Positions 7,120-64,000 of a stretch of 64,000 nt of DNA are shown here, in pieces. Each line of letters opens with the position of its first letter. The stretch's first letter is position 1. The notes beneath the pieces are model-generated. The model had not been told where the DNA came from and made no database searches. It saw nothing but the letters and a program-made list of their open reading frames with translations. Made by a program: the position numbers and the translations under genes. Source of the stretch: Rhizophagus irregularis (lineage: Eukaryota > Glomeromycota > Glomeromycetes > Glomerales > Glomeraceae). The stretch is taken from NCBI RefSeq assembly GCF_026210795.1, contig NC_089446.1, positions 2,633,001 to 2,697,000 of the forward strand. Direction: 5' to 3'.

Positions 7120-7470
7120 TTTAAACTGATTAACATATAAATTGGGAAGTTGTAATACTTAAAGGAAAAAAAATTGATATAATCAATATAAAAAAAGATC
7201 GTTATGGATAATCTAAAAAATTTACGTATTATATATCAATTTCAATTTGGGTCACACAAGTCAAGTCGATTTCGATTTCAAATCGAAATTGACTCGACTC
7301 GTGACTAACTTGTGACTCAACTTGTCATATCAATTTGGGAAAATTATCAAATCAAACTCAACTCAACTCAACTCAACCAACTCGTGAGTCAACTCGATTC
7401 GTTTCAGAGCACTAATCTCCACAAGTGCACTTTCTATAAATGCATCTTCTCTCTATATGCATGTTATGGC

Positions 7471-9425
7471 TAAGGTTGCTTGCCGAAACTAGGAGGTTTT
7501 GGCGGGATGGCGTATGCGAAACTGCCGAAACTAGTTTTGCAAAATTGGTCTAAAATGTTGAAATGCCGTAACTGCCGAAACCTACTGAAACTGTCTAAGC
7601 TGCTGTAACTGTTTCGGCGTAGTACATTATATGATATACATATAGTTTCAGCAACATTATGAATTATGATTAATTTCGGCATAGATTTTTTTTTTTGACG
7701 CAATGCCGTATTCAGCCGTATTGAATTTATATAGACGTAATTGCTGAAATTTGCCGAATTTATCGAATTGTCAATGATTTATGCCAATCTGATACAGGAA
7801 AGTTAGATTATCAGACAGATTGCATAGTACAAATCATCTAATGATCTTTTTTTTCTTGTATTGAGGTTTCCGGACAAAAATTATGAGGTAAAGAACTAAG
7901 GAGGGTCCAGACAGAAAGTTTTTATTTAAAAAATGTAATAGTTTATTTTTCGTTTTGTAGGGTTGCCGGACAAAAAGCACAACCAGACTTTTGAAGTAAG
8001 AAAGGACCGGAAAAAGGTCCATTTTAATAAATTTATTTATTTTTTCTTTATTGTAAGGTTGCTGGACGAAAAACATGACCGGACTTTGGAAATGAGATAA
8101 GGAAGGGTTGAGGGAAAGATTTTTCGTTATTTTTTATTTTAATAAATTTAACTAATTTATTTTTTTCTTTTTTGTAGTGTTGCCGGACGAAAAACATGAC
8201 CGGACTTTAGAATTTAGGTAAAAGAGGGGGCTGAGGAAAGGTTTTTTGTTATTTTATTATTTAATAAATTTAACTTATTTATTTTTTTCTTTTTTGTAGT
8301 ATTTCCGGATGAAAAACATGACCGGACTTTGGGATTTAGGTAAAGGAGGGGCTGAGGAAGGTTTTTCATTGTTTTTTTATTTAATAAATTTAACTTATTT
8401 ATTTTTTTCTTTTTTGTAGTGTTTCCAGATGAAAAATATGACCGGACTTTGGAAATGAGGTAAGGAAGGGTTGAGGGAAAGATTTTTCGTTGTTTTTTAT
8501 TTTAATAAATTTAACTAATTTATTTTTTTCTTTTTTGTAGTGTTGCCAGACGAAAAATATGACCAGACTTTAGAATTTAGGTAAAAGAGGGGCTGAGGAA
8601 AGGTTTTTCATTGTTTTTTTATTTAATAAATTTAACTTATTTATTTTTTTCTTTTTTGTAGTGTTTTTGGACGAAAAACATGACCGGACTTTAGAATTTA
8701 GGTAAAGGAGGGGGCTGAGGAAGGTTTTTCATTGTTTTTTTATTTAATAAATTTCTTATTTATTTTTCTTTTTGTAGTATTGCTAGACGAAAAACATGTA
8801 CGGATTTATAAATTAAGGTAAGGAGGACCGGTGAAAGTTTTTCGTTAATTTTTTCATAATTTATGAAAAACATGACCAGACTCTTAAAATTAAGGTGAGG
8901 GAGGGTCAGAGAAGGTGTTTTCATCATTTTTTTTTAATAAATTTAATTGATTTTTTTTTCTTTTTGTAGGATTGTCAGATGAAAAAATATGACCAGACTT
9001 TTGTAATCAAGGTAAAGTACTGGGAGAAGAGTTTCGTTATTTTTTTTTTTTGATAAATTTAATTAATTTATTTTTTTTTATGTAGAATTCCCAGAAAAAA
9101 AATCACAACTGTTGCATTTGTTAGGATTTTTCAATAATAATATTATTATTAGAATATTACAACGTTGTTTATTTACATATAAATTTATTAGAGATTGAAA
9201 TTAAAAATAAAATATTAGGAATGCTGTAATTATGCCGAAATTCATATAAAATATTATTATTTATTATGCCGAAACTACGGATAAACTCATTATAAAGGTT
9301 TTGCAAATTTTGGCAGTTTCACAAGTTTTGGCAGTTTGGCAGTTTCGCAGTTTCACAGTTACGGCACTATATGTGGAGTTTCTCCTTTCGGCATTAGGCC
9401 AAATAGGTTTCGGCAGGCAACCTTA
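7471..9425. mobile_element. Non-autonomous DNA element with 8-bp target duplication, carrying an intron-like array
   Basis: GTTATGGC occurs immediately outside both ends (7463-7470 and 9426-9433), a perfect 8-bp target duplication. The ends are inverted repeats: left TAAGGTTGCTTGCCGAAAC, right (reversed) TAAGGTTGCCTGCCGAAAC. Subterminal zones (7480-7620, 9290-9420) are full of TGCCGAAACT/AGTTTCGGCA words. No transposase frame is present. The interior, about 7850-9100, is a tandem array of about twelve units described separately. The 8-bp duplication points to hAT-type mobilisation. Confidence 0.8.
7850..9100 (+). repeat. Array I: tandem intron/exon-like units, period about 120 bp
   Basis: Acceptor-like TTTTTTGTAG is followed by a conserved 40-nt block at 8178, 8300, 8420, 8541 and 8662 (next at 8778), spacing 116-122. 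A typical block begins TGTTGCCGGACGAAAAACAT and ends GACTTTAGAATTTAG, directly followed by GTAAAAG, GTAAAGG or GTAAGGA. Upstream of each acceptor lies AATAAATT-TAACT-AATTTATT (or a close variant): an 8-bp stem whose loop holds a TAAC branch-point-like word. Outer units at 7866, 7962, 8058, 8865, 8970 and 9085 are more diverged. Forty is not a multiple of three and ACATGACC gives TGA in one frame, so joining all blocks cannot give a long protein. Confidence 0.7.
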
Positions 9426-9433
9426 GTTATGGC

Positions 9434-11837: not shown

Positions 11838-14290
11838 ATGTATTTGATTTCAGTGCCTAATCTCCCTCCAGTTTTTTCTGTTACTATTGGACCCCATTAT
11901 TATAAAGCAAATGTGACAGCGGATACTATGGTAGAGCTATTGCTGAAATGCTTTAAAACTTATATTAAAGATGAAATTCACGACTATAATCTTAATTATT
12001 GCGGAAAAGTCTTACAAAATACTGATACTCTTAAAAATTTAGGAATAAAGGTTGGTGTTTATATGAAATATTTATGTAACTGTTAATGATAGATAGAATG
12101 TAAAGAAAAGTATTACTCGTGCAATGTTATTGAATTATTCTTTTTTATTCTTAGGAAGGAGACTTTATCAGTGCAGTTCAAATTCCATTTAAACTTTATG
12201 TGAAAACGCAAGATGGAAAAGCGATAGAGCTCCTACTAATGCAAAATAACACTATCCATGAGATTAAACGAATGGTTCAGGAACGTGAGGGCATCCCTGA
12301 TTATAAACAACGTCTTTTTTTTGATGGAAAACGATTGGATGATAATACCATCTTAAAAACTTATAATATTCAAAAAGGGTCAACATTGGAGCTAATTTTA
12401 ACAACAATTAAACTTTATGTGAAAACTCAAGATGAAAAAGCGATAGAACTCTATCTAACGGAAAATAACACTATCCATGATGTCAAAGAAATGGTTCAGA
12501 AATGTATAGATATTCCTGTTCATAGACAATGCTTTCTCTTCGGTGGAAAACAATTGGATGATTCTAGCACCATGAAATGTTGTAATATTCAAAACGAGTC
12601 AACATTGGTGTTAACTACAACTTCATTTAAACTTTGCGTGAAAACGCAAGATGGACAAATTGTAGAAATTTATGTAACTGAATATAACACTATCCGTGAG
12701 GTTAAACAAATGATTCAGAAATGTGAAGGCATTCCTATTAATAAACAATGTCTTTATTCACTTTTATATAGAAAGCAATTGAGTGATTCTAATACCTTAA
12801 AATATTATGGTATTCGAGAAGGGGCAACATTGGAGCTACTTCTAGCTATTATAGTTCGTGTAAAAACATTATCCGGCAAAATTCTTACTTTGTCAATATG
12901 CGACAATAGCTCCATTTTCCCTCGAGAATCATGGAATGAACCAACATTACATCTCGTACTTAGATTGCGCGGAGGAATGTTTGATGAAACTAGTGGGCGT
13001 GTAGATTTCAATGCGTTGCCATCACTCATGCAATATATGCATGTTCCTGAGAGACATCTAGTACATGACAAAGTTCACGCCGGTATTGCTTGTAATTATT
13101 GTGGCAAAAGTGAATGGAAAGGAGCAAGGTAAATAATTAGTTTAATCAACTTTTTTATGGACATTAGAAATATCTATTTCATCCCTTTTGTATCGTTTTG
13201 CTTTCACAGATATAAGTGTTCAGAATGTTTTGATTATGACTTGTGTGATGATTGTATCAAAATGTCCAAACTGCTTCATGACGTGCAGCATAATTTTTCG
13301 GAATTATTGGATCCAGAAAATCAAAATGACTTTCCAAAAGTTGTTCCCGTTAACCCAGTTACCATCGTACCAATACTTCCAACAAAAAAAGAAGAGATGT
13401 TAAATTTGCTACAAGAAGAAGAAAAGCGAAGGGTTTCACCAGAATTACAACAAAAATATTACGAGGTTGGAAGTGATCCCACATCCGGAAAGGACTGGAT
13501 GGATGTTACTGATCAAATGCAACATGAGTTGGTTCGAGAATTTGGTTACTCGGATGAGGCTGTAGAATTATTACGACGTGCTCCACAACTTTACAAAGGT
13601 AAAAAAGGGATTGTTCTTTTTTTTTTTTGCTATTACATTAACATTTTCTTATTGCTTACTTTATTTTCAGATGATCCTGCATTTCAAACAACTCAAGTAT
13701 ATGTTCGTAACAATATTGCTTCTATTGGAAATCTCAAAGAAGGAATGCCAGCACCTGACTGTTCATTAGTTCCCTTAAATAATGATAAAACTATAACTCA
13801 ATTGCGCTCACTTTACCAACCGGGACGACCCCTTGTTCTTCTTGCTGGATCACATACCTGTCCTTTATATCGATACATATCTCATGTGCTCAACGACATT
13901 TATAAAAAATATCGAAAAGATGTAGACTTTTATATGATTCAAATTCGTGAAGCACACGCCAGTGATGTTTGGCCTATTGGTAATATTGTAAATGTTAAAG
14001 AGCATCGTACATTAGAAGAACGGTTGACAGCTGCACGTAATATGGTTGAAGCTACTCATCTTAAGATTTCTGTATTAGCAGATACAATGGATAACACTTT
14101 CTTAAAGTTATATTCACCTTGGCCATTCCGATTCTTTGTAATTATGGATGGTAATTTTAAACTTGTCGGAATGCCAAAGGAAGCACGTTATGATACAACG
14201 GATCTAGTCAACTGCTTAGATGCTCTTTTGGATGAAAAATCACCCGAGTCTAAACCAGATACTCCATTGCATAAAAAAAGAAGAATATAA
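11838..14290 (+). CDS. Ubiquitin-repeat / ZZ zinc finger / deiodinase-fold fusion protein
   Basis: Four exons: 11838-12050, 12155-13128, 13210-13598, 13671-14290, all GT...AG with matching phases; 731 residues. Residues about 10-80 are a divergent ubiquitin-like domain; 83-155, 156-228 and 229-303 are clearer ubiquitin-like repeats (KLYVKTQDGKAIEL, EGIPDYKQRLFFDGKRLDD); 304-345 is a shortened fifth one (about 42 residues) ending LHLVLRLRGG, the exact ubiquitin tail, followed by Met346. A ZZ-type zinc finger follows (C384, C387, C399, C402, C408, C411). Residues about 540-710 match the iodothyronine deiodinase/thioredoxin fold: RPLVLLAGSHTCPLYR with Cys589 (TGT) where animal enzymes have selenocysteine, EAHASD at 619-624, DTMDN at 663. 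The C-terminus KKRRI could be a nuclear signal. If deubiquitinases cut after Gly345, a ZZ-deiodinase protein is released. Function is inferred only. Confidence 0.85.
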
Positions 14291-15240: not shown

Positions 15241-15599
15241 CTTCCTATTAATTCACAAACTATATGATGAAATGGATGAAATGTTTATTTAAGATTCTAA
15301 CATAAGTATTTAAATTAATTTTTTCATTTCCTTTTTTATTTTTATCATAAAAATTAATGGCCCTTTTAACTCTTCTGTATAACATTCTTACTTTTAAAAA
15401 TAGATGCCAAATATTTAAAATTAAACCTTTTCCCTATATATCTTTAAACTTTTATTTGTCATAACTACTTTCCAATCTCAATACTTGATTTATTAGAAAA
15501 AAAATAACTTATATTACTAGGAAATGGAAACCATTGTAAAGTTGGAGCAAAAAATTTTGTATAAAAAATTTTAAAATTTTTATTTATTTAAACACTATC

Positions 15600-16015
15600 C
15601 TTCTTTTCCCAATTTACCTTTAAAGTCTGGTATATTCAAGAAATCTGGAAACCCTAGAAAAAAAATAAGAAATGAAATATTAGAAACATTTCTTTAAAGT
15701 CAAATAAATAAGAAAAGCCTTCTTCTCTATTTTATTTTAAAGACTGGCGTGTACAAAAAACCCAGCGTTCCCAGAAAAAAAAATAAAAAATGAAACGTTA
15801 GAAACATTTTTTTAAAGTCAAACAAATAAAAAAAACCACCTCTTTCTAATCTACTTTTAAAGTCCGATATATACAAGAAATCCAGAAACCTTAGAAAAAA
15901 AAATAAGAAATAAACCGTCAGAAATATTTCTTTGAAATCAAATAAGAAAAAAAATATACTTACTATTCCGCCGAAACCTAAAAAAAAAATAAAAAAAAAG
16001 ATTGTTTATTTTTGA
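15600..16015 (-). repeat. Array III: intron/exon-like tandem units on the minus strand
   Basis: About 3.5 units, period about 115-120. Read on the minus strand, unit 1 has a T-rich tract and TTTCTAG (AG at 15655-15654), a 36-nt block from 15653 to 15618 starting GGTTTCCAGATTTCTTGAAT, then GTAAAT. Unit 3 has TTTCTAAG and a block from 15889 ending GACTTTAAAA. Before each acceptor is a hairpin with a branch-point-like loop: AGAAATG..TTCTAAT..CATTTCT, AAAAATG..TTCTAAC..CATTTTT, AGAAATA..TTCTGAC..TATTTCT. Stem changes are compensatory. The phrase CGGACTTTA is shared with Array I. Confidence 0.6.
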
Positions 16016-16218
16016 TGTAGCATGAAATTTCAATGACACGCTTTGTGCAGATCAATCAAAAATAACACATGCGGACAAACGGACTTCGCCACGTAATCTA
16101 ATATGTCGTTAAAGTTTATAAACATATATAATCCTTCACTTCGCTCTGGACAATAATATATAATTAATTCCTATTGGTCATATTATGTGATCAAACTTTC
16201 TCAAATTAACACATAAAA

Positions 16219-16515
16219 AGGACCCCGGATATCTCCAAAACAGGTCATAAGTCACACTTTCGGCAGATTGGTCCATTTTTCAGGGGCTCAAAAAATCGTT
16301 TTTTGTAAATATCTCGGCATCCAGTGGTCCAATTTTGATGAACTTTTTTTTAAATTGTAGAGCTAAATGAGGGCTACAAAATATAAAAAAGTTCATTAAA
16401 ATTGAATTACTGGATACTGAGATATTTACAAAAAACGATTTTTTGAGTTTTAGCAAAAAGGGGTGTTTTTGGCCAAAAGTCCATTATGACCTTTATATTA
16501 GATATCCGGGGTCCT
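16219..16515. mobile_element. 297-bp palindromic MITE with 8-bp target duplication
   Basis: ACATAAAA lies directly outside both ends (16211-16218 and 16516-16523). The ends are inverted repeats (AGGACCCCGGATATC). Inside, a second inverted pair (CAAAAAATCGTTTTTTGTAA with AGATATTTAC and AAAGTTCAT words) makes almost the whole element foldable on itself. No coding capacity. The duplication length suggests hAT-type mobilisation. Confidence 0.8.
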
Positions 16516-26380: not shown

Positions 26381-27265
26381 TTATATTTGTTGCATCCAAT
26401 ATTCTTCGTTAAAATAATCCATGGGATGATAATATAATTGATCTATTGGACCCATTTGACCCATTTGACCCATTTGACCCATTTGACCTATTTGATCTAA
26501 TCCAACAGGGATTGTGTAATCTAGAGTATTATCCGGAACAATTTGCTGCTGTTGTTGTTGAGGAATGTTAAGATTAATCTTAGGAATGTCACATGTTGTT
26601 TCTTGATTTTTCTGTAATTTGACCTTAATCTTTCTTTTTGACTTTAGATTAGAATTATTATTTTCCGGATTAAAATGCTTCCATGCGGCTTTATCTCTCT
26701 TAGGTTGATATTTATATTTGGGGAACATTTTTTTATGCATTTCAGCCACTTCCTTACCTAGTTGCTTATATTCTTCTCTTTCACCTTGAGAGAGACCTTT
26801 CCATATTTTTCCAATTATCTGGGAGAATTGTCTTTCGTTATAATCAGATAAAGCAGGAGTTTGATTCTTCTGGTCATGTGCAATCTTACGGAAAAGAATG
26901 AAATTATTTGATGGTCTTTTAATATGCCCATCCGAAGCATGGAACGGATTTTTGTTGATAAATTCTACGGCAGACATTGGAGGTGGAAACATTCTTAAAA
27001 GTCTTTTTACATTATTAAGTTGTTCCATCGGTACAAATAAATCTTCGTTGTCGCTAACAGTTGGTGAATTACAACCGGAAGAACAACTAGTGGATGCAGC
27101 GTCACTACTAGTTGAAGGTGAGTGAGGAGCGAAAAGAAAGCTAGTATCAATTGTATCAATTGAAGGAGAATGAGGAAGAATTAGAAGAGAAGTATCAGAT
27201 GTTGGAATAATAAGTGAATTATTTTCACTATGAATAGAAAAAGCTGGAGTATGAAAATTTGTCAT
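26381..27265 (-). CDS. HMG-box protein (MATA-HMG type), 294 aa
   Basis: Single exon, ATG at 27265. Residues about 1-75 are Ser/Thr/Pro-rich. Residues about 114-190 form an HMG box of the fungal MATA type: HIKRPSNNFILFRKIAHDQK, then SDYNERQFSQIIGKIWKGLS, GEREEYKQLGKEVAEMHKK, FPKYKYQPKR. The N-F-I-L-F-R, I-W-K and Y-K-Y-x-P positions expected for minor-groove binding are present. Residues 200-225 are basic (SKRKIKVKLQK), then comes a short Gln run (residues 236-241) and four GQM repeats (from a 9-bp tandem repeat, 26448-26490), and an aromatic acidic end (YFNEEYWMQQI). Likely a nuclear sequence-specific DNA-binding protein; this class includes fungal mating-type regulators but is greatly expanded in Glomeromycotina, so a mating role is not implied. 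Confidence 0.88.
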   Translation of the reverse strand: MTNFHTPAFSIHSENNSLIIPTSDTSLLILPHSPSIDTIDTSFLFAPHSPSTSSDAASTSCSSGCNSPTVSDNEDLFVPMEQLNNVKRLLRMFPPPMSAVEFINKNPFHASDGHIKRPSNNFILFRKIAHDQKNQTPALSDYNERQFSQIIGKIWKGLSQGEREEYKQLGKEVAEMHKKMFPKYKYQPKRDKAAWKHFNPENNNSNLKSKRKIKVKLQKNQETTCDIPKINLNIPQQQQQQIVPDNTLDYTIPVGLDQIGQMGQMGQMGQMGPIDQLYYHPMDYFNEEYWMQQI

Positions 27266-30200
27266 TGTTTGAATATTCTGTAATTTTATTGATTTTATTT
27301 TTGTGTTTAAAAAAAAAACTGAGATTTATTATTATTATATTTATTTCTTGTTTGTTATTTTCTTTTTTTTATTTTTTTTTGAGAAATCCATGGCGATATT
27401 TATACCTTTTTTTACAAGAATGTGATTAATGTGATGATTGATTGCTGTGTAATGAAGATTTTAAACAATTATTTTAGGAAATTTTTGAATCAAAAAATTC
27501 TATTATGTATAATTGCTGATCAATAATATATAACAGGAATTTACAACTCCGGTGCCTGAGTAAGAGGCAGTTTATATTATTCAATCCCGGTGTAACTCAT
27601 TGTTAAATTACTATTTTATCTTTGAAACCTATTAAATGTTTTGTTGAACAGAAATACAGAATATTCAGAAATTTTCAGAATAATTTTAAAAATATTCCAA
27701 ACATTCTTCGAAGAAGAGTATCAATAACCTTTTCTAGTTTAATTTATTCAAATATTTTAAAGCTGAATTCTCGAAATTTTCTGTTTTAGGACGATAATGT
27801 TTGAAATGTTGAAACCCGGGTATTGAGATTGTTTATTAATTTCATGAAATTTTCACACGCTTTCAAAAATGATTTACCAAAGTGTTATTCTTTTTTAACG
27901 TATATCGAAATTTTCTATGTAAATACAATTTAGGAATAATATTATAGAAAAATTTGCATGTATTTTTTTTAAAAAAACACATATATATATTTTTCAAATT
28001 GACTTATAATTAAATTATATATATATTTTTTAAATTGACTTATAATTAAATTATATATTTTTTTAGAATAAAACACATATTTTTTAGAATAAAACACATA
28101 TTTTTTAGAATAAAGTACATATTTTTTAAAATAAAGTATATATTTTTTAAATTAAAGTACATATTTTTTTGAAATAAAGTACATATTTTTTTAGAATAAA
28201 ATACATATTTTTTAATATATATTTTTTTTAAAAAAAATATATTACACACATATATACGCATGTATATTAAATTTCTTTACGAATAGAAAAAAAAGCAGGG
28301 ATTGAAAAAAAAAATTTTTTTTTTAAAAGACCTTCCCGAACGAAAGGAAATGTTCTATTTGTTTGTTTATCTTTTTTTTTCAAATGGAAACACTGCAATT
28401 TTCATGATTTTTTTTTCTCATTTAAAAAAACAAATATTATTCCTGGTAACAGAAAAATGAAAAATTCCAGAAAAAAAGAAAATAATATTTACGCCTAATT
28501 AATTACAATACATGCAATCTGGTTAATTAACATAATTTGTCAAAAAAAAAAAAAAATTATGCGCCAAGAAAGTTTCAGTTAATCATGTCTTTTTCTCTTT
28601 CAAAAATATTAATTAATTATTTGATATACTTTTTTAATATCATTGTAAATCGAATATGTAAAAAAAAATCCTTGATACTTTTCTTTTCTAATCATATGAA
28701 TTTTTTCTATACAAATATAGTAGTTAATTAATTATTGGAAAATTCTAGTGCAATCCTTCTTGCTTTTGCAGATTCCAAATTCAGTAATTTGCACAACCAA
28801 CGTGCTGTTGGAACATTCTTTTGCTTCTATTAGGTAAGGTGATAATAAAGAAAGGGTGATACAAGAGTGATATGGTATGCGGTAATACAGTACACCCAAT
28901 CTAGCATCTGATTGAATGCTAACATTTTACATAATCTGAGTAAATAAACCTTAACTGCGGCAATTTTTTTTTTTTTTACAGTACTAATAGATTATAATCT
29001 TTAGAAAATGATTCTTTTTTAAGGAAGATCGAAGAATTTTCTTTCCATGAAAATTTCGGCGGCGTTTTCTATTCATTATAATGTTATTAAGAATACTTCT
29101 AAACTTTGATATAAATTACTTGATATAGAGCATTTAGATAGCATATGATCAATTTTATGATCAATTTTAAAAAGATAACGAAGATCAAAAAGGAAGAAAT
29201 ACTTAAAAATAAAAATTTTGGCGTAAAATTGTCGGTGTTCTCTTCTCCGTTATTCATTTAACTTTAAAAATACTATACAAATCTTGATTTTGATACGTGA
29301 ATAACTCAAAATTTTTTTTTCTTCGTGTCTCTTTAATGTATTGTAACAATAACTTGCCTTAATCCAAAATTCATAAAATTTCATAAAATGGCGTTTTTTA
29401 TTGTTTCATCTATTTTGAAATTTAAAAACGATATTTTAATCATGATAAGGCAATATGATAAAATGATAAAAAGAATATATATATAATGAATTTAATTGGT
29501 TTTCTTTCATCCATGACTTTATTTGGAAAATCCCGCATTTATTTATAATACGGTATGATCTAATTATAATACGGTTAAATATTTTATACGTATATAATGT
29601 AATAAAATTTAAACATATATTTTATGCATAAAATCATATATATATCGCGACTTATGATAACGTTCTAAATCATTGTATCATTCATGTATAATAAAGTAGA
29701 AAAAGGTTAAATCTCGACCTTGATTTTAATGAATAAGCTTTGTAACTTTTAATATTTACGGTAACTTTTTTACGCCGAACATGCCGAACATCCCGAACAT
29801 AATATGAATTCGAGGGAAAAATTAATAAATTAAGATATTTCATTTTGCCAATATACTAAAAACGAAAAACAAAGGTTGAAATAAACAGGTTTATAATATT
29901 TTTGTACTTATAATAATAATTGAATATTAAATATTTTTTTTAAAAAATTAATATATAATTTTGTCTAGAATCTTCGTAATTTATTATATGTATTTATTTA
30001 TGTATATTTATATAGATATTTACAATTCGGGAAATTTCAAAATTAACCGTGCTTATCATCTTGGGGAAATGGGGTCCCTGGCCTAAAACTTAAAAGTATT
30101 TATAATATTCTTTATTTACCTCATATCCTTTGACGCGTTATATCTATCCGCAATATCTAAACCCAAATTGGATTGGTGCAATTTTTAAATGTTAAACATT

Positions 30201-31373: not shown

Positions 31374-32291
31374 AATGAAAAATTTAATGGACTTTTCATT
31401 ATTTATTACAATAAAGATGAATGCAATTTTTGATTCTCCCCCTTTTTTTATTTTTAAATTTTATTTATTTTTGTTCAGAAAGTGGTCCAATAATATTATT
31501 CAAAATATTTTACATTGTTTTTAGTATCAAAAGATTTTGTTAACTTTACACTTAATAGATTAGTTAGAAATGATGATGTTATCCACATGACAACATCGAT
31601 TGGAAGGTTTACATTGATTTTAATAACGTATAACAATATTCTCCTGTGCTTTTGGCAAAAAAAGATATTCTATAATCATTTAAATAAGGTTAATTGGAAT
31701 GTAAAATAGATATCAGGGTTCTGAATTCGTTCATCAATCGAGGATTAAAACAAACAATTATTTTTGAAATCTGTGACACAAATATATATATTATATTATT
31801 TTTATTTTTATTTTTTTTCTTTTGATTTTATAGAAAAATTAAGCAGTGCCTAACTTTAATTGGAAATATTGGTAATATATGCAGACAGAAAAAAAGCTTA
31901 CAAAGTATGAAGGTAAGTAAATATTCTTTGACGCGCCATTTGAGTGCATATTTCTTTCTTTACCATAAAAATTAAAAACACTTAAATATATATTAAACTG
32001 TACGAACAAAGTGACTTTTTTTTCTGCTCCTAAAAATATCCTCTAAAATGACTATTACGCTACACGAAGAAAAGCCACTAGTCTATGAATTTGATTGTAT
32101 TCAACTGTAAAAAAATATAAATATACATATTTTATTAATATTCGGTATAATAACGTCTATTCAAGTATAAAAACGCTCAATTTTCTCCCTGGTGTTCTTA
32201 CAATTTAAATCTAGATCTCATATAAATTACAAAAAAAAAAAAAAAAGACTTTCCTCTATTTATAAAAAAAAAAAAATTACGATATACAACT
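31374..32291. other. Upstream region of the second HMG-box gene
   Basis: AT-rich. A 79-nt open block (31834-31912) is framed by TTTATAG and GTAAGT and reads KIKQCLTLIGNIGNICRQKK, an exon candidate without visible partners. A-runs at 32232-32246 and 32267-32277 directly precede the HMG start. Confidence 0.3.
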
Positions 32292-32939
32292 ATGTTCGCA
32301 AGAGAAACTCACTTCGTAAACGGATTCCTAAATCAATATGGTCCCGATTTTTATAAATCGTTAAAGGACACCAACCTTCCTTTACGTACTCCACGTAAAA
32401 AGAATGGAAAAATTCCACGACCCCCTAATTCGTTTATATTGTTTAGACAATACGTTTCTGAATACGCAAAAAGACGTGGATTGACATTTGAATACGAGAA
32501 TGAGCAAATAGTTTTAAAATCTAGCCAAGCGTATTTGGGAAAGGTTTCATCTTGCCTTTGGGTAAACCTTCCCATTGATACAAGACTCATTTTTAAGCAA
32601 ATGTCCGAAACGGTCAAATATTTTCACGAGCTAAATTACCCCGAATACAGATATAGTCCGAACAGACAAGCACATATTTTTAAAGCAGGGAGGAAATTTA
32701 AAAAATCAAAACCTGTGAAAGTAGTCTCCGAGGAAACGATCCCACAGACTAATATTTTGAATCAACAAAATTTCAACCACCTTAACCAACCTATGACTCC
32801 CATTAATGACCAATATTTGGGAGCTGATTACTCTATTTTGACCGAATACACTTTTACGGCGACGCTTCCTAGTCAATCCTTGCATCCATATTATTATAAT
32901 ATGTACAATAATTTCTTCATTAACGAATTCGAATTTTAA
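32292..32939 (+). CDS. HMG-box protein (MATA-HMG type), 215 aa
   Basis: Single exon. Residues about 40-122 form the box: KIPRPPNSFILFRQYVSEYA, then KRRGLTFEYENEQIVLKSSQ, AYLGKVSSCLWVNLPIDTRL, FKQMSETVKYFHELNYPEYR, YSPNRQ. The N-terminal PRPPNSFILFR and C-terminal YPEYRYSP are canonical; the middle helix is less so, with about ten extra residues (LTFEYENEQI) between helix 1 and the SxxLGxxW-like part. After the box a basic patch (KAGRKFKKSKPVKV) is followed by an Asn/Gln/Tyr-rich tail. Likely nuclear DNA-binding protein. Codon usage and the lack of breaks suggest an active gene. A different subfamily from the protein at 26.4-27.3 kb. Confidence 0.85.
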   Translation: MFARETHFVNGFLNQYGPDFYKSLKDTNLPLRTPRKKNGKIPRPPNSFILFRQYVSEYAKRRGLTFEYENEQIVLKSSQAYLGKVSSCLWVNLPIDTRLIFKQMSETVKYFHELNYPEYRYSPNRQAHIFKAGRKFKKSKPVKVVSEETIPQTNILNQQNFNHLNQPMTPINDQYLGADYSILTEYTFTATLPSQSLHPYYYNMYNNFFINEFEF

Positions 32940-51539: not shown

Positions 51540-52320
51540 ATTTATCATCGTCCCTTTCGCTCCCATATCATTTTTCATCACTCCATATCGCTCCATATCA
51601 TTTTTCATCACTCCATATTGCTGATTGCTCCATATCGTTTTTCATCACTCCATATCATTCCATATCGTTTTTCATCACGCCATATCGCTCCATATCATTC
51701 TATATACTCCATATCATTTTTCATCACTCCATATTGCCCCATATCATTTTTCATTACTCCATATTTCTCCATATCATTTTTCATCACTCCATATTGTTCC
51801 ATATCGTTTTTCATCACCCATATCATTTTTCATCATTCCATATCGCTCCATATCATTTTTTTCATCACTCCATATCGCTCCATATCATTTTTCATCACGC
51901 CATATCTTCCCATATCGTTCCATATTGTTTTTCATCACTCCATATCGCTCTATATCATCTTTCATCACTCCATATCGCTCCATATCGTTCCATATCATTT
52001 TTCATCACGCCATATCGCTCCATATCATTCTATATACTCCATATCATTTTTTATCACTCCATATCGCTCCATATCGTTCCATATCATTTTTCATCACTCC
52101 ATATCGTTCCATATCGTTCTATATCGCTCCATATCACTCCATATCATTTTTCATCACTCCATATCGCTCCATGTCATCTTTCATCATTCCATATCGCTCC
52201 ATATCGGTTTTCATCATTTCATATCGTTCCATATCATTTTCCATCATCTCCATATCATTTTTCATCACTCCATTTCGTTTTGCAACATTCCATTTCATTT
52301 ACATCATCCCATTTCACTCC
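51540..52320. repeat. CATATC-based minisatellite, about 0.8 kb
   Basis: Alternating phrases ATCGCTCCATATC and ATTTTTCATCACTCCATATC in variable order, unit multiples of about 13-15 bp. Low in stop codons on the plus strand, so three overlapping frames (51288-52430, 51413-52450, 51625-52377) stay open together; all are repeats of ISFFITPYRS-like or SSLHIAPYH-like words and are not taken as genes. Confidence 0.85.
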
Positions 52321-53039: not shown

Positions 53040-54660
53040 TTATAAAAAATGGGATAAATAGTTTTTATACTGCTAAACAACTTTCAATTAATAAAGGAAG
53101 TTGATTTCATGCGACCAAAGTGGTAAAATTACACTCTAAAGTTCATAGTAAATGGAAAAAAAAATCAAAAGTTAGTACCATTATGAAAAATGTAGGTTTC
53201 TCTATATGTATTATACATACACCCATGAAAATTAACATACAAGTAGTTTCAACCTTGCTGAACAATTTTTAATTAATTTAGAAAGTCGATTTCATTTGAC
53301 TAAAGTGGTGAAATTACACGCTGAACCCAATAAATAAAAAAAGAAATCAAAAGTTAGTACTGTTATAAAAAACGTAGGTTTCTCCATATGTATTATATTT
53401 ACACCTATGAAAATTAATATACAAGTAGTTTCGACCTTGCTGAACAATTTTTAATTAATTTAGAAAGTTGATTTCATTTGACTAAAGTGGTGAAATTACG
53501 CGCTGAAGTTAGTAAACAGAAAAAAAAAATTCAAAATTTAGTACCATTATGAAAAATGTAGATTTCTTCATATATATTATATTCACATCCATGAAAATTA
53601 ATACACAAGTAGGTTCGACCTGGCTGAACATGTTTTAATTAATTTAAAAAGTCAATTTCATTTGACTAAAGTGGTGAAATTATGCTCTAAATTTAGTAAA
53701 TGGAAAAATAAAAATTTGAAAGTTAGTACTGTTATAAAAAATGTAGATTTCTCCATATGTATTATTTCTACACCTATGAAAATTAATATACACATAGTTT
53801 AAAGATGGTCATTGGTTCTACCGGTCCTACTCAGTTCTGGACCGGTCAGTCCCAGAACTTGTAGGACTGGATTACGGTCTTTCATTTTTTTTGGCGCAGT
53901 AGGATCAGGCCTGAGACTGACCTAGTCTTTGTATCAGTCTTTATATATAAGTTATTACATGCATATTGAAACTTTGCCTTATTTCTAGAAAAGACTGTCT
54001 CCAAGGAAAAAAAAGAAAATTAACGTTAATAAAGTATAATAAATCTGTCTTTATACATGTTATTTGCTTATAATATACGTCTGGACTGGAATGGTTCCTG
54101 GAAGACTGTTCCTAGTAAAGTAATAGAAAAAAATTATTATTTGCGGAAAAAAGAAAAAGACTGATCGGTCTTAAAAAGACTGCAGTCCTTAGAGCCATTC
54201 GGTGGTCTTATTGTACGTGTTACGCAAAGACTGACGAGTGCCTACACCAAGACAGACTGGTCCGTCTTTTTAAGGTGTAGACTAAGCTGAGACCATAGTC
54301 TTTTAGGACCGATAACCATTTTTAATGTAGTTTCAACCTAGCTGAACATTTTCCAACTAATTTAAAAAGTTGATTTCATTTGACCAAAGTGGCGAAATTA
54401 TGCTCTGAAGTTAATAAATAAATAAAAAAAAATTGAAAGTTAGTACTGTTATGAAAAATATGGGTTTCTTTATATATATTATACTTACACTTATAAAAAT
54501 TAATATACAAGTAGTTTTGACTTCATTAAACAACTTTCAATTAATAAAAGAAGTTGATTTCATTTAACTAAAGTGATGAAATTATGCTCTAAAGTTATTA
54601 AATAAAAAAATATAAAACTTTGGAAGTTGATAGTATTATAAAAAACAAATTTCTCTATAA
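53040..54660. repeat. Tandem repeats of about 180 bp inside element B
   Basis: Six or seven diverged copies; each has AAAGTTAGTACTGTTAT(A/G)AAAAATG-like, GTTTC-CCATATGTATTAT, AAATTAATATACAAGTAGTTT and TTGACTAAAGTGGTGAAATTA phrases. Copies start near 53040, 53170, 53350, 53535, 53712, 54430 and 54620; the series is interrupted at 53801-54325 by another insertion. Confidence 0.75.
53801..54325. mobile_element. Insertion of about 525 bp within the 180-bp repeats
   Basis: The ends are inverted and related (AAAGATGGTCATTGGTTCTA; reversed right end TTAAAAATGGTTATCGGTCC). Flanks CATAGTTT and TGTAGTTT look like a diverged 8-bp duplication: removing the insert plus one flank restores the normal repeat unit length. 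The interior is full of GGACCGGTC, AGACTGGTCC and GACTG words, much richer in G+C than its host. Confidence 0.6.
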
Positions 54661-57949: not shown

Positions 57950-59940
57950 AGTTTTTGGAAGTACCAATTTCCAGGTACCCGATTTAAAGCCCTTTTGCTG
58001 GATAATTGTTTTCATGTTTTCACTGATTTTTGTAGATTGTTAGAACAAATTGCACTAATCAAAAAATATCTTGCTAAAAATTCTATTTGGAACTTACAAA
58101 AAAAAAGAAAAAAAAATATTAAAAATAATAATAAAAAAAATAAATAAAATAGTCTCATAAAGAAACTTACGGTTTCAGTTCCAATACATTGATTCGAAAC
58201 TTTAGGACCTATAATAAAAATAAAAAAAAGAAACATTGAAAAAGTTTCTTATAAAAAAAATAAAATAAGTTTCATTTTAAAATTCGAAACTTACCATCCT
58301 GAAGGCAGAACTAATTATAATTCATTTCGCCTTGCTGGTATCTCTTCTATGCTTAGTGCCATAAACTTCATAACAACCATCTTAAATATGCGAACTCTGG
58401 ATATTTCATTACACCGTATGCCTCTGTTTGCATGAGCTGTATTAGTGACAGTCATTCTATTATTATTATCTTTACCAGTTCTAGCAGGTAGCTATTTCTA
58501 TCTCTTTCACAACGAATTAACGAAATTTGCAGTTTAAGCATTCCCAACGCATTTCAACGCGTTTCAGATTTAAAACCTACAAAAGAAAGTAAAATAGAAA
58601 TGTTAGCTAGCGTTTCTAATTAAATAAATGAAAAAAAAAACAATTACTTCACAATGGGATGTTGTGAAACTTATATTTCAAACGTTTTCGGTGCATTCCC
58701 AATTCAAGATAACACTCCGATCTGATCCTACAAAAAAGATAAAGGAGATGTTAGTAAACGTTTCCTAATAAAAATTTTAAAAAAAATAAATTTTAAAAGG
58801 TTTGAAGTGAATCTCTTCAAAACTTACCATCTGATACTAAACCAACGAATTCTATTATATACCTAAATAAATAAAAGAAAAAGGAAATATTAGTAAACAT
58901 TTCCTAATTTTTAAAAAAACAAACAAATAACGGTAATTTCGTAATAAAACGTACAAAACTTACTGTTTCAGAACCTGTATCCAATACCGGATATTCTTGA
59001 ACCTACAAAAAATAAAGGATCAGTTAGAACGGTTCCTAATAAAAATTCTATTTTAAAAAGTTATTTAAGTTTTATAACGAAACAAAACTTATCCAACCGT
59101 TCATCTGTTCTGAACACTTTGATCCTACAAAAATGATAAAGGGAATGTTAACAAATAAAAATTAAAAAAAAAAAATCAATTTTAAAAGTTTTGAAGTGAA
59201 ACTTTTCAAAACCTACCATTCTACTACTATATCTAAGATCTGAAGTTAAACACCTACAAAAAAAATTATAGGAAACATTAGTGCCGTTTCCTAAAAGAAA
59301 TTAAAATTTTTTTTTAAAAAAGTTTACCATTTCATTTTCCAATCGAATACGCCAAGTCTTACAAAAAAAAATTATAGGAAACGTCAGTTTCCTAAACTAA
59401 AAGGATTAAAAAAATATAATTTACAAAAGTTTTAAAGCTTTCGAAACTTACCATTTGAAAAACGGGAAAATAAAAGAAAAGGAGAGAATGAAAAGGAAAG
59501 GGAGTAATGAAAGAGAAAGAGAAGGGAGGAGGGGAAATAAAAGGAAAGGAAAGGAGAAAAAACAAAGGGCGAAAAAAGAAATTTTTAAAAAAAGGTTAAA
59601 AAAAGTTTTGAAGCAAATGCTTCAAAACTTACTATTTTGAAAATGGAAGGAAGGGGAGAAAGCGAAAAGAAAAAAGGAGAATAAAAGAGAAGGAAAGGGG
59701 AGAATAAAAAGGAAAAGAGAAGCGAAAAGGGAAGGGAAAATGAAAGGGAGAAAAAAGAAATTATAAAAAAAAACTTAAAAAAGTTTTGAAGCAAATGCTT
59801 CAAAACTTACCATTTGGAAAATGGGAGAAAAGGGAAGGGGATAACAAAAGAGAAAAAGAAGAGGAGAATGAAAAGGGGAAGGAGAGAATGAAAGAAAGAA
59901 AAGGAAAGTCGTGAGAAAAAAATTAAGCTTTTGCTAAAAA
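57950..59940 (-). repeat. Array IV: intron/exon-like tandem units on the minus strand
   Basis: Minus-strand acceptors (T-rich tract plus GTAG, TTTAG or GTAAG) precede blocks starting at 59357, 59253, 59124, 59002, 58862, 58727 and 58576; spacing 104-151. Blocks end ...ATG or similar, followed by GTAAGTTTTGAAG or GTAAACTT. Between donor and acceptor lies a hairpin with a branch-point-like loop: AGGAAAT-GTTTACTAAT-ATTTCCT, AGGAAAC-GGCACTAAT-GTTTCCT, AGGAAAC..TTTACTAAC..TCTCCT. Donors at about 59806 and 59630 are embedded in AAGTTTTGAAGCA-TT-TGCTTCAAAACTT stems. At 59455-59930 the pyrimidine tract is expanded to a nearly pure purine/pyrimidine strand split in three units of about 180 bp. Open frames inside (58236-58012, 59455-59640, 59803-59585) are by-products. 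Confidence 0.65.
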
Positions 59941-60096
59941 AAGCTTAATTTTTTTTTCGCAATACTGCAGCACCGCAGCAGGCGTAGCAGTAATTATTAA
60001 TTCAATATCACATAATATACATGATATGTAGATTTATATAAATAGGGGGCTTTTTCCTGAAATTTTTTTTTATATTTTTTTTTAATAGATGTATAT

Positions 60097-60590
60097 GTTG
60101 TGCCTCAAATTGATTCTTGCCTCAGCTGACAGCTGACGCACCTCAGATTAAAATCATCACCTGACGCGTCTCATTTGAATCGTATAAATTTAATCTACTA
60201 TAAATAAACTTTTTTCTATTAATTAAATTGCCTTCATGTTATAAGTAAATATATTTGTCACAATAATGTACACATATTCTGAAATTTTTATACAATTTTA
60301 ATTCATATTAAATATACAATGCGAATATATTTGGAAAATTTGCATTATAAACACATTTTTAAATGAAGATTTCAAAAGCAATCATGAATCCAATTGATCT
60401 AAAATTTTAGAATTGAATATTTGAAAATACAGCAAATAAGTTTTATTAATAATCAAATGTACATTAGATTAGAAAATTTAATGCTTAATTATAATCAATT
60501 TTTTATTGTAAAGTGAGGCACGTCAGGTGGCGATTTTAATCTGAGGTGCGTCAGCTGTCAGCTGAGGCAAGAATCAATCTGAGGCACAAC
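60097..60590. mobile_element. 494-bp MITE with about 80-bp inverted repeats
   Basis: Left GTTGTGCCTCAAATTGATTC and right (reversed) GTTGTGCCTCAGATTGATTC; the match extends about 80 bp with a handful of differences and includes CAGCTGACAGCTGACGCACC. AT-repeat flanks hide the target duplication. No coding frame. Lies between the two divergent arrays IV and V. Confidence 0.8.
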
Positions 60591-61459
60591 ATATATATGT
60601 GCTTATATATACATATATATATATCTATTAACTTTAATACTTTATGAAAAGCCCCTCCTCTATAAATAGGTAGAGGTCATAAAATACCTATAGGGGAAGA
60701 GCCATTGCTGCCCCTTTCGTCTATTTTATAGTGATAAAAAGAGGAAGTCTTCAGTAGTAAGGTTTAATGTGTATTTATATATATTAATTATTAATATTAA
60801 ATAACACAATATATATATTAAATTACACCTGATATTAAAAAATCTCTATAAAAAGTATTTATATTTAAAATATAATTAAAAACTTTTTAAAATATATTTA
60901 AAATATACTTAAAATATATCACTGGTCGAAATCAAAACTTTTGACCGTTAAGAGCTTTCGGCATGATTTTTGCCGATTGGTCATATGATTCGTCACATTT
61001 TTTGACCAATGGCAAAAATCGGTAAAATCAATTACAAATTGACTGATACTGATTGTTAAACAAAAGCTTGTTCAGTCTTTTGGTGGAAAATCAACTTATA
61101 CTGATTGATATACGAAAAATTGTTCCTTTAAGATCATTCAGTAAATTATGCCGATTGGTCATATAAATCGACACAATTTTGCCAAATTTGCCAAATTGGT
61201 AAAAATTGGCAATAATTCGGCAAATCAGTTGTTGAAATCATCAGATGATTAAGATCGACATTTTACAGAAACTTTTTTAAACTTTTTAAACTTTTCGCAT
61301 CCTTTCCTCCCTCTCTTTCGTCCTTTTCCCTTCCTTTTTTTACACCTTAGTTCTTCACATAAATGTACACATTGAATTCGGTAACTTTTTATTAAATTAA
61401 AAAAGTTTCGAAATTTCTTTAAAAAAACGTTTTTTAACGTTAAAAAACGTTTCTTTTTT
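60591..61459. other. Region between arrays IV and V
   Basis: At 60955-61210 the phrases TGCCGATTGGTCATAT and ACAATTTTGCC/GGCAAAAATCGG recur twice, direct and inverted, probably a transposon remnant. The minus-strand frame 61551-61249 overlaps the first array units and is not considered a gene. Confidence 0.35.
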
Positions 61460-64000
61460 ATACTTTTAGTGAAGAAAATCAGTTCCGGCTTGAATACCGA
61501 TATTACAGGTAAAGTTTTGAAAAATTTCGAAACTTTAAAAAAAAAAAACATTTTTAGATAAAAACGTTTCTTTTTTATATTTTTTGCAGGAAATCGGTTC
61601 CAGTGTGGATACCGTTTCTCTAGATAAAGTTTTGAAAGATTTTTGAAACTATCTTAAAAAAAAACGTTTTCTAACTAAAAAACGTTTTTTTTCATTTATT
61701 ATGGTAGGAAATCAGTTCCGGCGTGGATACCGTTTCCCTAGGTAAAGTTTTGAAAAAAATTTTCGAAACTTTCTTTAATAAAACGTTTTTAATAAAAAAA
61801 CGTTTTTTTTTATTATTTTTTTATATAGGAATTCGGTTCCAGCGTGGATACCGATATTCCAGGTAAAGTTTCGAAAATTTTCGAAACTTTAATAAAAAAA
61901 CGTTAAATATTAACGTTTTTTATTATATTTTTTTGTAGGGAATCGGTTCCAGCGTGAATACCAAATCCTAAAGTAAAGTTTCGAAAATTTTCGAAACTTT
62001 AATATAAAAAACGTTAAATATTTAACGTTTTTTTTAATTTTTTTGTAGGGATATTGGTTCCGGCGTGGATACCAAATCCCAAAGTTAAGTTTTGAAAAAA
62101 AAGTTTCGAAACTTTCTTAAATAACGTTTTTTAACAAAAAAAAACATTTTTTTTTTATTTATTTTTGTGGGAAATCGGTTCCGGCGTGGATACCGTTTCC
62201 TAGGTAAAGTTTTGAAAATTTTCGAAACTTTAATATAAAAAACGTTATATTTAACGTTTTTTTTAATTTTTTTGTAGGGATATCGGTTCCGGCGTGGATA
62301 CCGAATCCCAAAGTTAAGTTTCGAAAAAAGAATTTCGAAACTTTCTTTAATAAAACGTTTTTATACTAAAAACGTTTTTTTTTTATTATTTTTTATATAG
62401 GGCTATCGGTTCCAGCTTGGATACCGAAACCCAAGATAAGTTTCGAAAAATTTCGAAACTATAATAAAAAAACTTCGTAAGTTCTTTGATTTTTTTTATT
62501 TTTTTTTTAATAAAATATGAACGGTTAATACTAACCGTTCTTTTTTACTTTTTTTTTTAGTTTCGGCACTCGGGTGGGCTTCCGAAGTACAGAAATCCAA
62601 AGATTCGTAAGTAGTACGAATTCTTTGGATTTTTTTTTGTTTTTTTTTTAAATAAAATATGAACGGTTAATACTAACCATTCTTTTTTACTTTTTTTTTA
62701 GGTCAGCTCTCGGGTGACTTCCGAAGAATGGAAAAATGGAAAAAACCAAGTTTCGTAAGTTCGAAACTTGGTTATTTTTTTTTTTGTTTAATTTTTAATA
62801 TTATGAACGGTTATTAACCGTTCTTTTTCTTTTATTTTTTATAGGTGGGAGGGGCTTCCGAGTTCCGAAGAACGAAAAAAAACCAAGATTCGTAAGTATA
62901 TATACGAATCTTGGTTTTTTATTTTATTTTTTTTTAATTTTATTAACGAACGGTTACTAATAACCATTCGTTCTTTTTTTAGGTTCGGTGGACTTCCGAA
63001 TTCCGAAGATCAGAAAAGAACCAAGATTCGTAAGTATATACGAATCTTGGTTTATTTTTTTGTTTTATTTTTAATATTACGAACGGTTACTAATAACCGT
63101 TCCTCTCTTTTTTTTATAGGTCAGGTGGATTTCCGACGAATAGATGAACCAAGATTCGTAAGTACAAATACGAATCTTGGTCTTTTTATTTTTATTATAT
63201 TTTTTGATTTTTTTTTCTTCTATTTTGTAGGTTTTGGCATTCAATTCTTGAGCGTTGGATATATGGGTAAGTTTTGAAGTAAAACTTCGAAACTTTTTCT
63301 AAAAAAAATTATTTTAATTTTTTTTTAATTTTTTTTTTCTATTTGTAGGTTCGACTTTCAGTTCTTGGGCTTTGGATTTATGGGTAAGTTTCGAAGTGAA
63401 ACTTCGAAACTTATTTTAAAAAAAGATTTTTTTTTAATTTTATTTTAATTTTTTTTCTATTTTGTAAGTTCGACTTTCGGTTGGGCTTTGGATATATGGG
63501 TAAGTTTCGAAGTAAAACTTCGTAACTTATTTTAAAAAAATATATTTTTTTAATTATATTTTAATCTTTTTTTTCTACTTTGTAGGTTTCGACTTTCGGT
63601 TGGGCTTTGGATATATAGGATAGTTTCGAAGTTAAAACTTCAAAACTTTTTAAAAGAAATTTTTTTTAATTGTTTCTTTTTTCTATTTTGTAGGTTCGAC
63701 TTTCGGTTGGGCTTTGGATATATGGGTAAGTTTCGAAGTAAAATTTCAAAACTTTAAAAAAAATTGGTATTCTTAATTGTTTCTTTTTTCTATTTTGTAG
63801 ATTTCTTTCAGCTCTAGGGCATTTGGATATATAGGTGAGTTTCGAAGTGAAACTTTGAAACTTTTTAAAAGAAATATTTTTTTAATTGTTTCTTTTTTCT
63901 ATTTTGTAGATTTTGACTTTCGGTTCTTGGGCTTTGGATAGGTGAGTTTCGAAACTTTGCTTTCTTTTCAAAACTTTAAGAAAATTTTTAATTTTTATTT
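61460..64000 (+). repeat. Array V: at least 21 intron/exon-like tandem units, running off the window
   Basis: Blocks after (T)n-TAG start at 61470, 61590, 61708, 61829, 61939, 62049, 62170 (acceptor decayed to TGG), 62278, 62401, 62561, 62702, 62845, 62983, 63120, 63231, 63349, 63468 (GTAA), 63586, 63694, 63801 and 63910. Three subfamilies: 5' part with blocks like ATCGGTTCCGGCGTGGATAC and AACGTT hairpins; middle (62561-63160) with (T)TCCGAA blocks and GAACGGTTA..TAACCGTTC hairpins holding TACTAAC or TACTAAT; 3' part with TTCGACTTTCGGTTGGGCTT blocks and only the donor hairpin. Donors are GTAAAG, GTAAGT or GTGAGT and lie in or beside stems, for example AAGTTTCGAAGT-GAA-ACTTCGAAACTT. Block lengths 32-47 nt, mostly not divisible by three. 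Confidence 0.72.

Follow-up and report, generated by a model that had tools for sequence, protein, structure and literature searches.

Transposon-borne arrays of splice-like exon–intron units in the genome of Rhizophagus irregularis

A 64,000-nucleotide stretch of the Rhizophagus irregularis genome (C18:2633001-2697000, hereafter the window) holds four tandem arrays of miniature exon–intron units, labelled A to D. Their ends and target-site duplications show arrays D and A to be cargo of putative non-autonomous DNA transposons with terminal inverted repeats (TIRs), CACTA-like and hAT-like, respectively; array C is, by homology, related to a further array-bearing element family. Taken as a whole, we read the arrays as transposon-borne, duplicated exon–intron units that would be spliced locally, would be non-coding and would serve the transposon. 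We put the probability of this reading at about 0.65, with low confidence in the use as service to the transposon.

The four arrays lie where the original prediction had placed them. A strict search rule, which demands a T-rich tract followed by [TC]AG, 20-66 nt of sequence and a GTRA-type donor, finds eight units in array A (7.85-9.1 kb, plus strand), one in B (15.6-16.0 kb, minus), four in C (57.95-59.9 kb, minus) and ten in D (61.46-64.0 kb, plus), and none on the reverse strand of any of the four. In 300 dinucleotide shuffles the corresponding means were 0.36, 0.12, 0.69 and 0.71, with maxima of 2, 2, 4 and 3. The expected enrichment of signal spacing over shuffles is therefore found for arrays A and D, which lie far above chance; array C only equals its shuffle maximum under the strict rule, with more units visible by eye, and array B gives too faint a signal within the window to be claimed, although 73 matches elsewhere mark it as a dispersed repeat family. 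Across the genome (all genome-wide counts cover 146.7 Mb in 32 contigs), there are at least 185 matches to D3, 274 to D1, 114 to A and 73 to B. Array D itself contains 10 unit-model matches in D1, five in D2 and seven in D3, and extends beyond the window into locus L007, where the final exon is followed by an AATAAA-like signal. Unit models applied to eight further D-type loci, picked from D3 matches, place D1, D2 and D3 together in L008, L009 and L010, D1 followed by D3 in L013 and L015, one weak D1 match followed by D3 in L014, and D3 only in L011 and L012.

The units follow one layout: a T-rich tract, TAG, a block of ~34 nt and GTRAG at or in a hairpin, to which many units add a second hairpin presenting CTAAC. 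The donor is arranged in one of two ways: GTRAG stands at the foot of a hairpin within the intron or, as in D2 and L039, GT lies in the loop of a hairpin formed between the end of the exon and the intron. In the example D1 intron listed in the table, the donor hairpin is followed by a second 12-bp hairpin, a T tract and TGTAG, and the branch hairpin of D2 carries TACTAAC/CTAAT. The acceptor-block-donor pattern (TGTAG, 20-50 nt, GTAAGTTTYGAA) has 407 matches genome-wide vs. 4 for its backward version, the donor hairpin GTAAGTTTYGAA...TTYRAAACTT has 725 vs. 0 for the backward control, and the branch hairpin AAACGTT-N1-4-CTAACGTTT has 625 vs. 5 for its control, a few self-complementary places being tallied on both strands in these last counts. 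Ten hand-picked branch-hairpin places were inspected by eye; eight belong to runs of at least two units, and the other two (L032 and L033) show a single unit in the stretch read. GT...AG ends, a branch word and a pyrimidine tract are all features of spliceosomal introns, and GC content is 0.40 in exons vs. 0.19 in introns. In unit alignments the donor G and T are conserved at 0.88 and 0.97 in D3 (exon mean 0.72) and at 0.77 and 0.85 in D1 (exon mean 0.77). The units thus look splice-competent, and from signals, spacing, composition and covarying structure we infer that they would be spliced.

Covariation was counted in 89 distinct donor hairpins, from places listed by the genome pattern search. 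The three pairs directly inside the fixed donor pattern are formed in 76/85, 56/79 and 31/45 hairpins, a covariation reached by 0 of 5,000 shuffles, although the sequences are related and this figure is therefore not a probability. Pairs 4-6 of the donor hairpin do not rise above shuffles. The variable pair inside the donor pattern (C-G 39, T-A 21, T-G 20, C-A 9) is weak evidence, because CpG decay would give much the same. On the 3' side, the hairpin score of 162 rule-called introns averages 8.8 vs. 6.4 in shuffles; strong 3' hairpins occur in 83 of the 162, with [CT]TAA[CT] or CTGAC at the loop in 53 of these 83. Stems are short, about 8-16 bp. Folding z, computed by region over 115 introns, is -2.42 for array D, -2.00 for array C (one intron), and -2.25, -1.10, -2.99, -2.93 and -2.45 for the regions on contigs C27, C1, C10, C5 and C15. 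The same measure in 16 ordinary introns of cpn60-family genes, their boundaries called by rule, averages -0.08, with one of the 16 below -1.5; hairpins as a general trait of this genome's introns were not seen in this set, and that explanation was set aside. The original claim of amplified intron units under one grammar is thus upheld by the pattern counts with their controls, by covariation and by the contrast with the ordinary introns. Its hairpins are present in D1, D2 and C, with the donor hairpin of D3 the clear one; in array A folding does not exceed shuffles.

CACTA/CMC transposons have CACT-type TIRs and make 3-bp target-site duplications. Element D, which carries D1 to D3, is 3,581 bp long with ends CACTGGTC...GACCAGTG and a 3-bp target duplication, TAT; homology borders around D-type loci are sharp. 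By homology, 16 loci were assigned as CACTA-like array loci (D in the window, L006, L008-L015, L029, L030 with L049, L044, L045, L048 and L052). Both ends were read in five, and all five are flanked by perfect 3-bp duplications (TAT, TTA, ATA, ACT and TTT); a single end was read in seven (L006, L008, L009, L013, L015, L029 and L044). The CACTGGTC/GACCAGTG ends are common to D, L010, L011 and L045, and L048, of the C family, ends in CACAGGTCGAA...TTCGACCTGTG. In L045 (6.1 kb), an L039-type array and then a D1-type array lie between CACTA-like ends. Of 17 exact CACTGGTCGAAATCATTT ends in the genome, at least eight, on C5, C9, C10, C11, C12, C17 and C27 and one on C29, lie within 4 kb of a correctly oriented D1 or D3 match. 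Removing L045 in silico restores a 99-aa (amino acid) frame on the array's strand, and removing L048 restores a 266-aa frame with an integrase core on the opposite strand; six other in-silico empty sites, among them L043, which was cut at the wrong left end, gave no frame above 51 aa.

An 8.4-kb element with D-like ends, L053, encodes Transposase_21 (tnp2 transposase, E 1.9e-11), a domain with at least 155 matches in the genome. The opening 287 bp of L053 are shared with L010 and L011 at 86-90%, with no such match to D, and the closing 161-169 bp with D, L010 and L011 at 85-93%. Its transposase region contains three rule-called candidate introns, none of them structured (z 0.6, 2.6 and -0.5). 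As a source of the arrays this element was rejected on the absence of array units and patterns.

hAT transposons make an 8-bp target-site duplication. Element A has 19-base inverted ends TAAGGTTGCYTGCCGAAAC with one mismatch, and all three A-type copies, A and two sisters, are flanked by 8-bp duplications (GTTATGGC, AATATAAC and CTCACTGC). With up to one mismatch allowed, the genome contains 1,242 occurrences of the end pattern of element A; such ends far outnumber the arrays found, so most of them may stand without an array. Three A exons align to one C-family exon with scores of 28, 25 and 25, against maxima of 24, 25 and 21 in 2,000 shuffles each. The description of the arrays as mostly unrelated in sequence was therefore only partly right, and short exons suggest that hAT-like and CACTA-like elements may have exchanged units. 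A shared amplification mechanism, also predicted, can be named in part, because TIR transposons carry two of the four arrays and a third array is homologous to a transposon-borne family.

The leader blocks of array C are ~71-89% identical to the C family (L048, L044 and L030). No element ends for array C were found within the window, and no C sequence occurs in the 3 kb beyond D, which argues against an array C interrupted by D. A search for terminal repeats plus duplication, which gave nothing in 8 of 8 array-free control stretches, found none in L047, L030 or array C of the window, a 16-bp terminal pair with TGC in L046 (read in one copy), only a low-complexity terminal pair in L044 and two weak pairs at array B. 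The array C leader is split by a ~490-bp foldback element (60099-60589, inverted ends TGTGCCTCA...TGAGGCACA) that looks like a miniature inverted-repeat transposable element (MITE); leader homology to L027, L028 and L030 stops at 60085-60096 and resumes at 60591. Adjoining array B, a ~300-bp stretch seen by eye (~16220-16515, inverted ends GGACCCCGGATATC...GATATCCGGGGTCC) is probably another MITE.

Table 1. Coordinates, in window numbering, of the arrays, the putative elements that carry them and their landmarks.
Feature	Position	Strand	Remarks
Element A, hAT-like TIR transposon	7471..9425	+	1,955 bp; carries array A
Target-site duplication GTTATGGC, left copy	7463..7470	.	element A
Target-site duplication GTTATGGC, right copy	9426..9433	.	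element A
Array A	7850..9100	+	~10 units; exons mostly 40 nt
Array B	15599..16154	-	weak; 3-4 degenerate units; homologous to L055
Array C and leader	57950..59990	-	diverged, end-less relative of the CACAGGTC-ended family (L048, L044, L030)
Element D, CACTA-like TIR transposon with D1, D2, D3	60920..64000	+	right end C18:2697500, 500 bases beyond the window
Left terminal inverted repeat CACTGGTC	60920..60927	+	3' partner in L007
Array D1	61402..62504	+	~10 units, each a ~34-nt exon plus a two-hairpin intron; 10 nhmmer matches
Example intron in D1	61863..61938	+	GTAAAG donor at base of 12-bp hairpin; folding z -5.6
Array D2	62561..63230	+	5 units; GTAAGT donor in loop of hairpin pairing exon end with intron
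Array D3	63231..64000	+	7 units; donor hairpin GTAAGTTTCGAAG...CTTCGAAACTT

We propose that an exon–intron unit may have been captured by a transposon and then enlarged by tandem duplication inside the element, which would be mobilized by transposase supplied in trans. On transcription, each short intron would be removed locally, because its hairpins would keep the donor, branch point and acceptor of that intron close to one another; the idea that, in a tandem array, hairpins tie every donor to the acceptor of the same intron is our own. The product would be a multi-exon RNA coding for nothing. The transposon might benefit because insertions in transcribed DNA, their interior being densely and locally spliced, would be less harmful or less visible to silencing. 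Single inserted copies would decay freely afterwards, and selection, if any, would act on copies still mobile. The function is conjecture: insertion tolerance, escape from silencing, or nothing. A stronger form of the proposal, a kind of transposon that exploits the host spliceosome, in which at least two superfamilies would have a selected, structured non-coding intron array, spliced to a small RNA so that insertions in transcribed DNA are tolerated or silencing is escaped, appears doubtful to us.

Several results weigh against parts of this reading of transposon-borne, locally spliced units. Transcription and splicing of the arrays are predictions from DNA sequence, and the covariation comes from related hairpins. 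For array A, folding of five introns gave a mean z of +0.08, no advantage over shuffles, although a hairpin of A and T only can be seen around TTTAAC; folding is weak in the regions on contigs C13 (-0.83), C4 (-0.62) and C21 (-0.70). Acceptor columns look poorly conserved in the D1 and D3 unit alignments, in part because local matches stop short. Three pairs of young copies (D with L008, A with L042 and A with L043) differ at 6 of 58 donor GT, 2 of 60 acceptor AG and 53 of 1,165 exon bases, and no splice-site constraint is seen in these single copies. Four of the 16 CACTA-like array loci (L012, L014, L030/L049 and L052) are without a recognizable end. The flanks of the transposase-bearing L053, GTG and GAA, form no target duplication, and this element has no array: it gave no match to the D1, D2, D3 or A unit models and none to the donor or branch patterns.

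Much the same features would arise if a captured unit had been multiplied as an ordinary internal tandem repeat, as passive cargo with inherited signals, its hairpins being DNA palindromes made or mended by repair and its splicing, if any, useless. Between young copies splice sites diverge at the pace of exons, which fits this explanation, as does array A, which has the grammar without significant folding, and the apparent relationship of A and C-family exons means that common origin can explain the shared layout. However, stems remain paired across many families despite their different sequences, and the layout recurs in elements with two end types and two donor layouts; we regard passive cargo as a serious but unlikely alternative. 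The arrays might instead be a device or target of silencing, with dense introns whose splice sites are hidden stalling the spliceosome and feeding small-RNA production, or with hairpins acting as small-RNA precursors. Two papers lend this some plausibility, one describing abundant small RNAs from young regions of this genome (PMC10234402) and the other repression mediated by cryptic introns of long non-coding RNAs in fission yeast (PMC7229227). The shortness of the stems speaks against it, and the published miRNA-like (microRNA-like) cluster of R. irregularis (L017), considered as a relative, is of another kind, by eye without the array grammar; we consider a silencing role improbable. At the gathering threshold, Rfam matched no known RNA family in five sources totaling 97,904 bases.

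Rows of short exons would also be expected if transposons carried protein-coding genes of the microexon or repeat-effector kind. Exon lengths modulo 3 (0/1/2) are distributed 78/27/57 among 162 exons, so that multiples of three are the commonest class. When 14 arrays with at least five exons were joined in silico and compared with shuffled exons, stop-free runs were longer in four (L007, 105 aa; L008, 80; L026, 80; L029, 71; p about 0.01-0.04) and not longer in the other ten, the joined sequences being incomplete because exons were rule-called and some units missed. By contrast, adjacent homologous exons differ by 1-2 bases, the longest frame of L014 is 34 aa over 25 exons vs. a shuffled mean of 71, and no frame of the last D exon is free of stops. 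The microexon gene family raised in the original prediction is therefore disfavored for most arrays, because exon lengths span all three classes and frames break. SP7-like effectors were rejected on gene structure; as described in part of PMC11333574, they share a single intron placed before the repeats, whereas in the arrays every repeat is followed by an intron and frames are interrupted. On exon lengths, frames and joined exons, protein coding was rejected for most arrays. We read most arrays as non-coding, with L007, L008, L026 and L029 as possible exceptions, and judge the protein-coding explanation very improbable.

No published description of such arrays was found by title or abstract start in the open-licence literature, and in the main text of two papers on transposons of R. 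irregularis (PMC11075540 and PMC8647823) words starting with "intron" or "splic" occur 0 times. Passages of these papers leave about two thirds of R. irregularis transposons unclassified (PMC11075540) and assign 24% of the genome to uncharacterized, unclassified repeats (PMC8647823). A recognizable grammar with known ends could help classify part of these repeats. The arrays also offer hundreds of natural, varied minimal introns with donor and branch point in hairpins, copies that form a test set for how RNA structure guides the definition of introns, and they suggest a way in which transposons might multiply introns.

Other features were observed in passing. At L017 (C13:2230500-2240400, 9.9 kb), 7 of the 10 R. 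irregularis miRNA-like sequences given in part of PMC6399891 lie in a row, and by eye the hairpins carry tRNA-like, B-box-like words GGTTCAATT, so that these miRNA-like loci may be tRNA-derived. A published 24-nt small RNA of R. irregularis has a single exact match in the genome. In the window, two adjoining frames (12155-14290, plus strand) have Pfam matches, the first to three ubiquitin stretches and the second to a ZZ zinc finger and a deiodinase-family domain. An open frame at 26381-27325 (minus) contains an HMG box (Pfam), which a stretch at 32226-32939 (plus) resembles by eye with no Pfam match. A 30-nt TCCATATC-type repeat occupies 51557-52256 in ~23 copies, and a 182-bp unit is present in four tandem copies at 53071-53800.

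Among the closest known systems are non-autonomous CACTA (CMC/EnSpm) elements, with the same CACT-/CACA-type ends, 3-bp duplications and a tnp2 transposase in an element with matching ends; the C family ends in CACAG, not CACTA or CACTG, and here, unlike in those elements, the interior consists of tandem exon–intron units with covarying intron hairpins. Element A shares with hAT transposons short inverted ends and the 8-bp duplication, in 3 of 3 copies; it differs in its interior array and is identified from ends and duplication, with no transposase linked to these ends. Schistosome micro-exon genes likewise have many very short exons in a row. They are coding and their exons keep frame, whereas exon lengths here fall in all mod-3 classes. 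In soybean Tgm-Express, a CACTA element, the cargo also bears exons and introns, alternatively spliced there (PMC1947982), but it consists of host gene fragments rather than a single repeated unit that mostly ignores frame. Fungal introner-like elements, the comparison made in the original prediction, are a resemblance only: they too are multiplied spliceosomal introns, but according to passages of PMC4457414 they are near-identical single introns in unrelated genes, whereas the introns described here stand in tandem, with tiny exons, as exon–intron series inside larger transposons.

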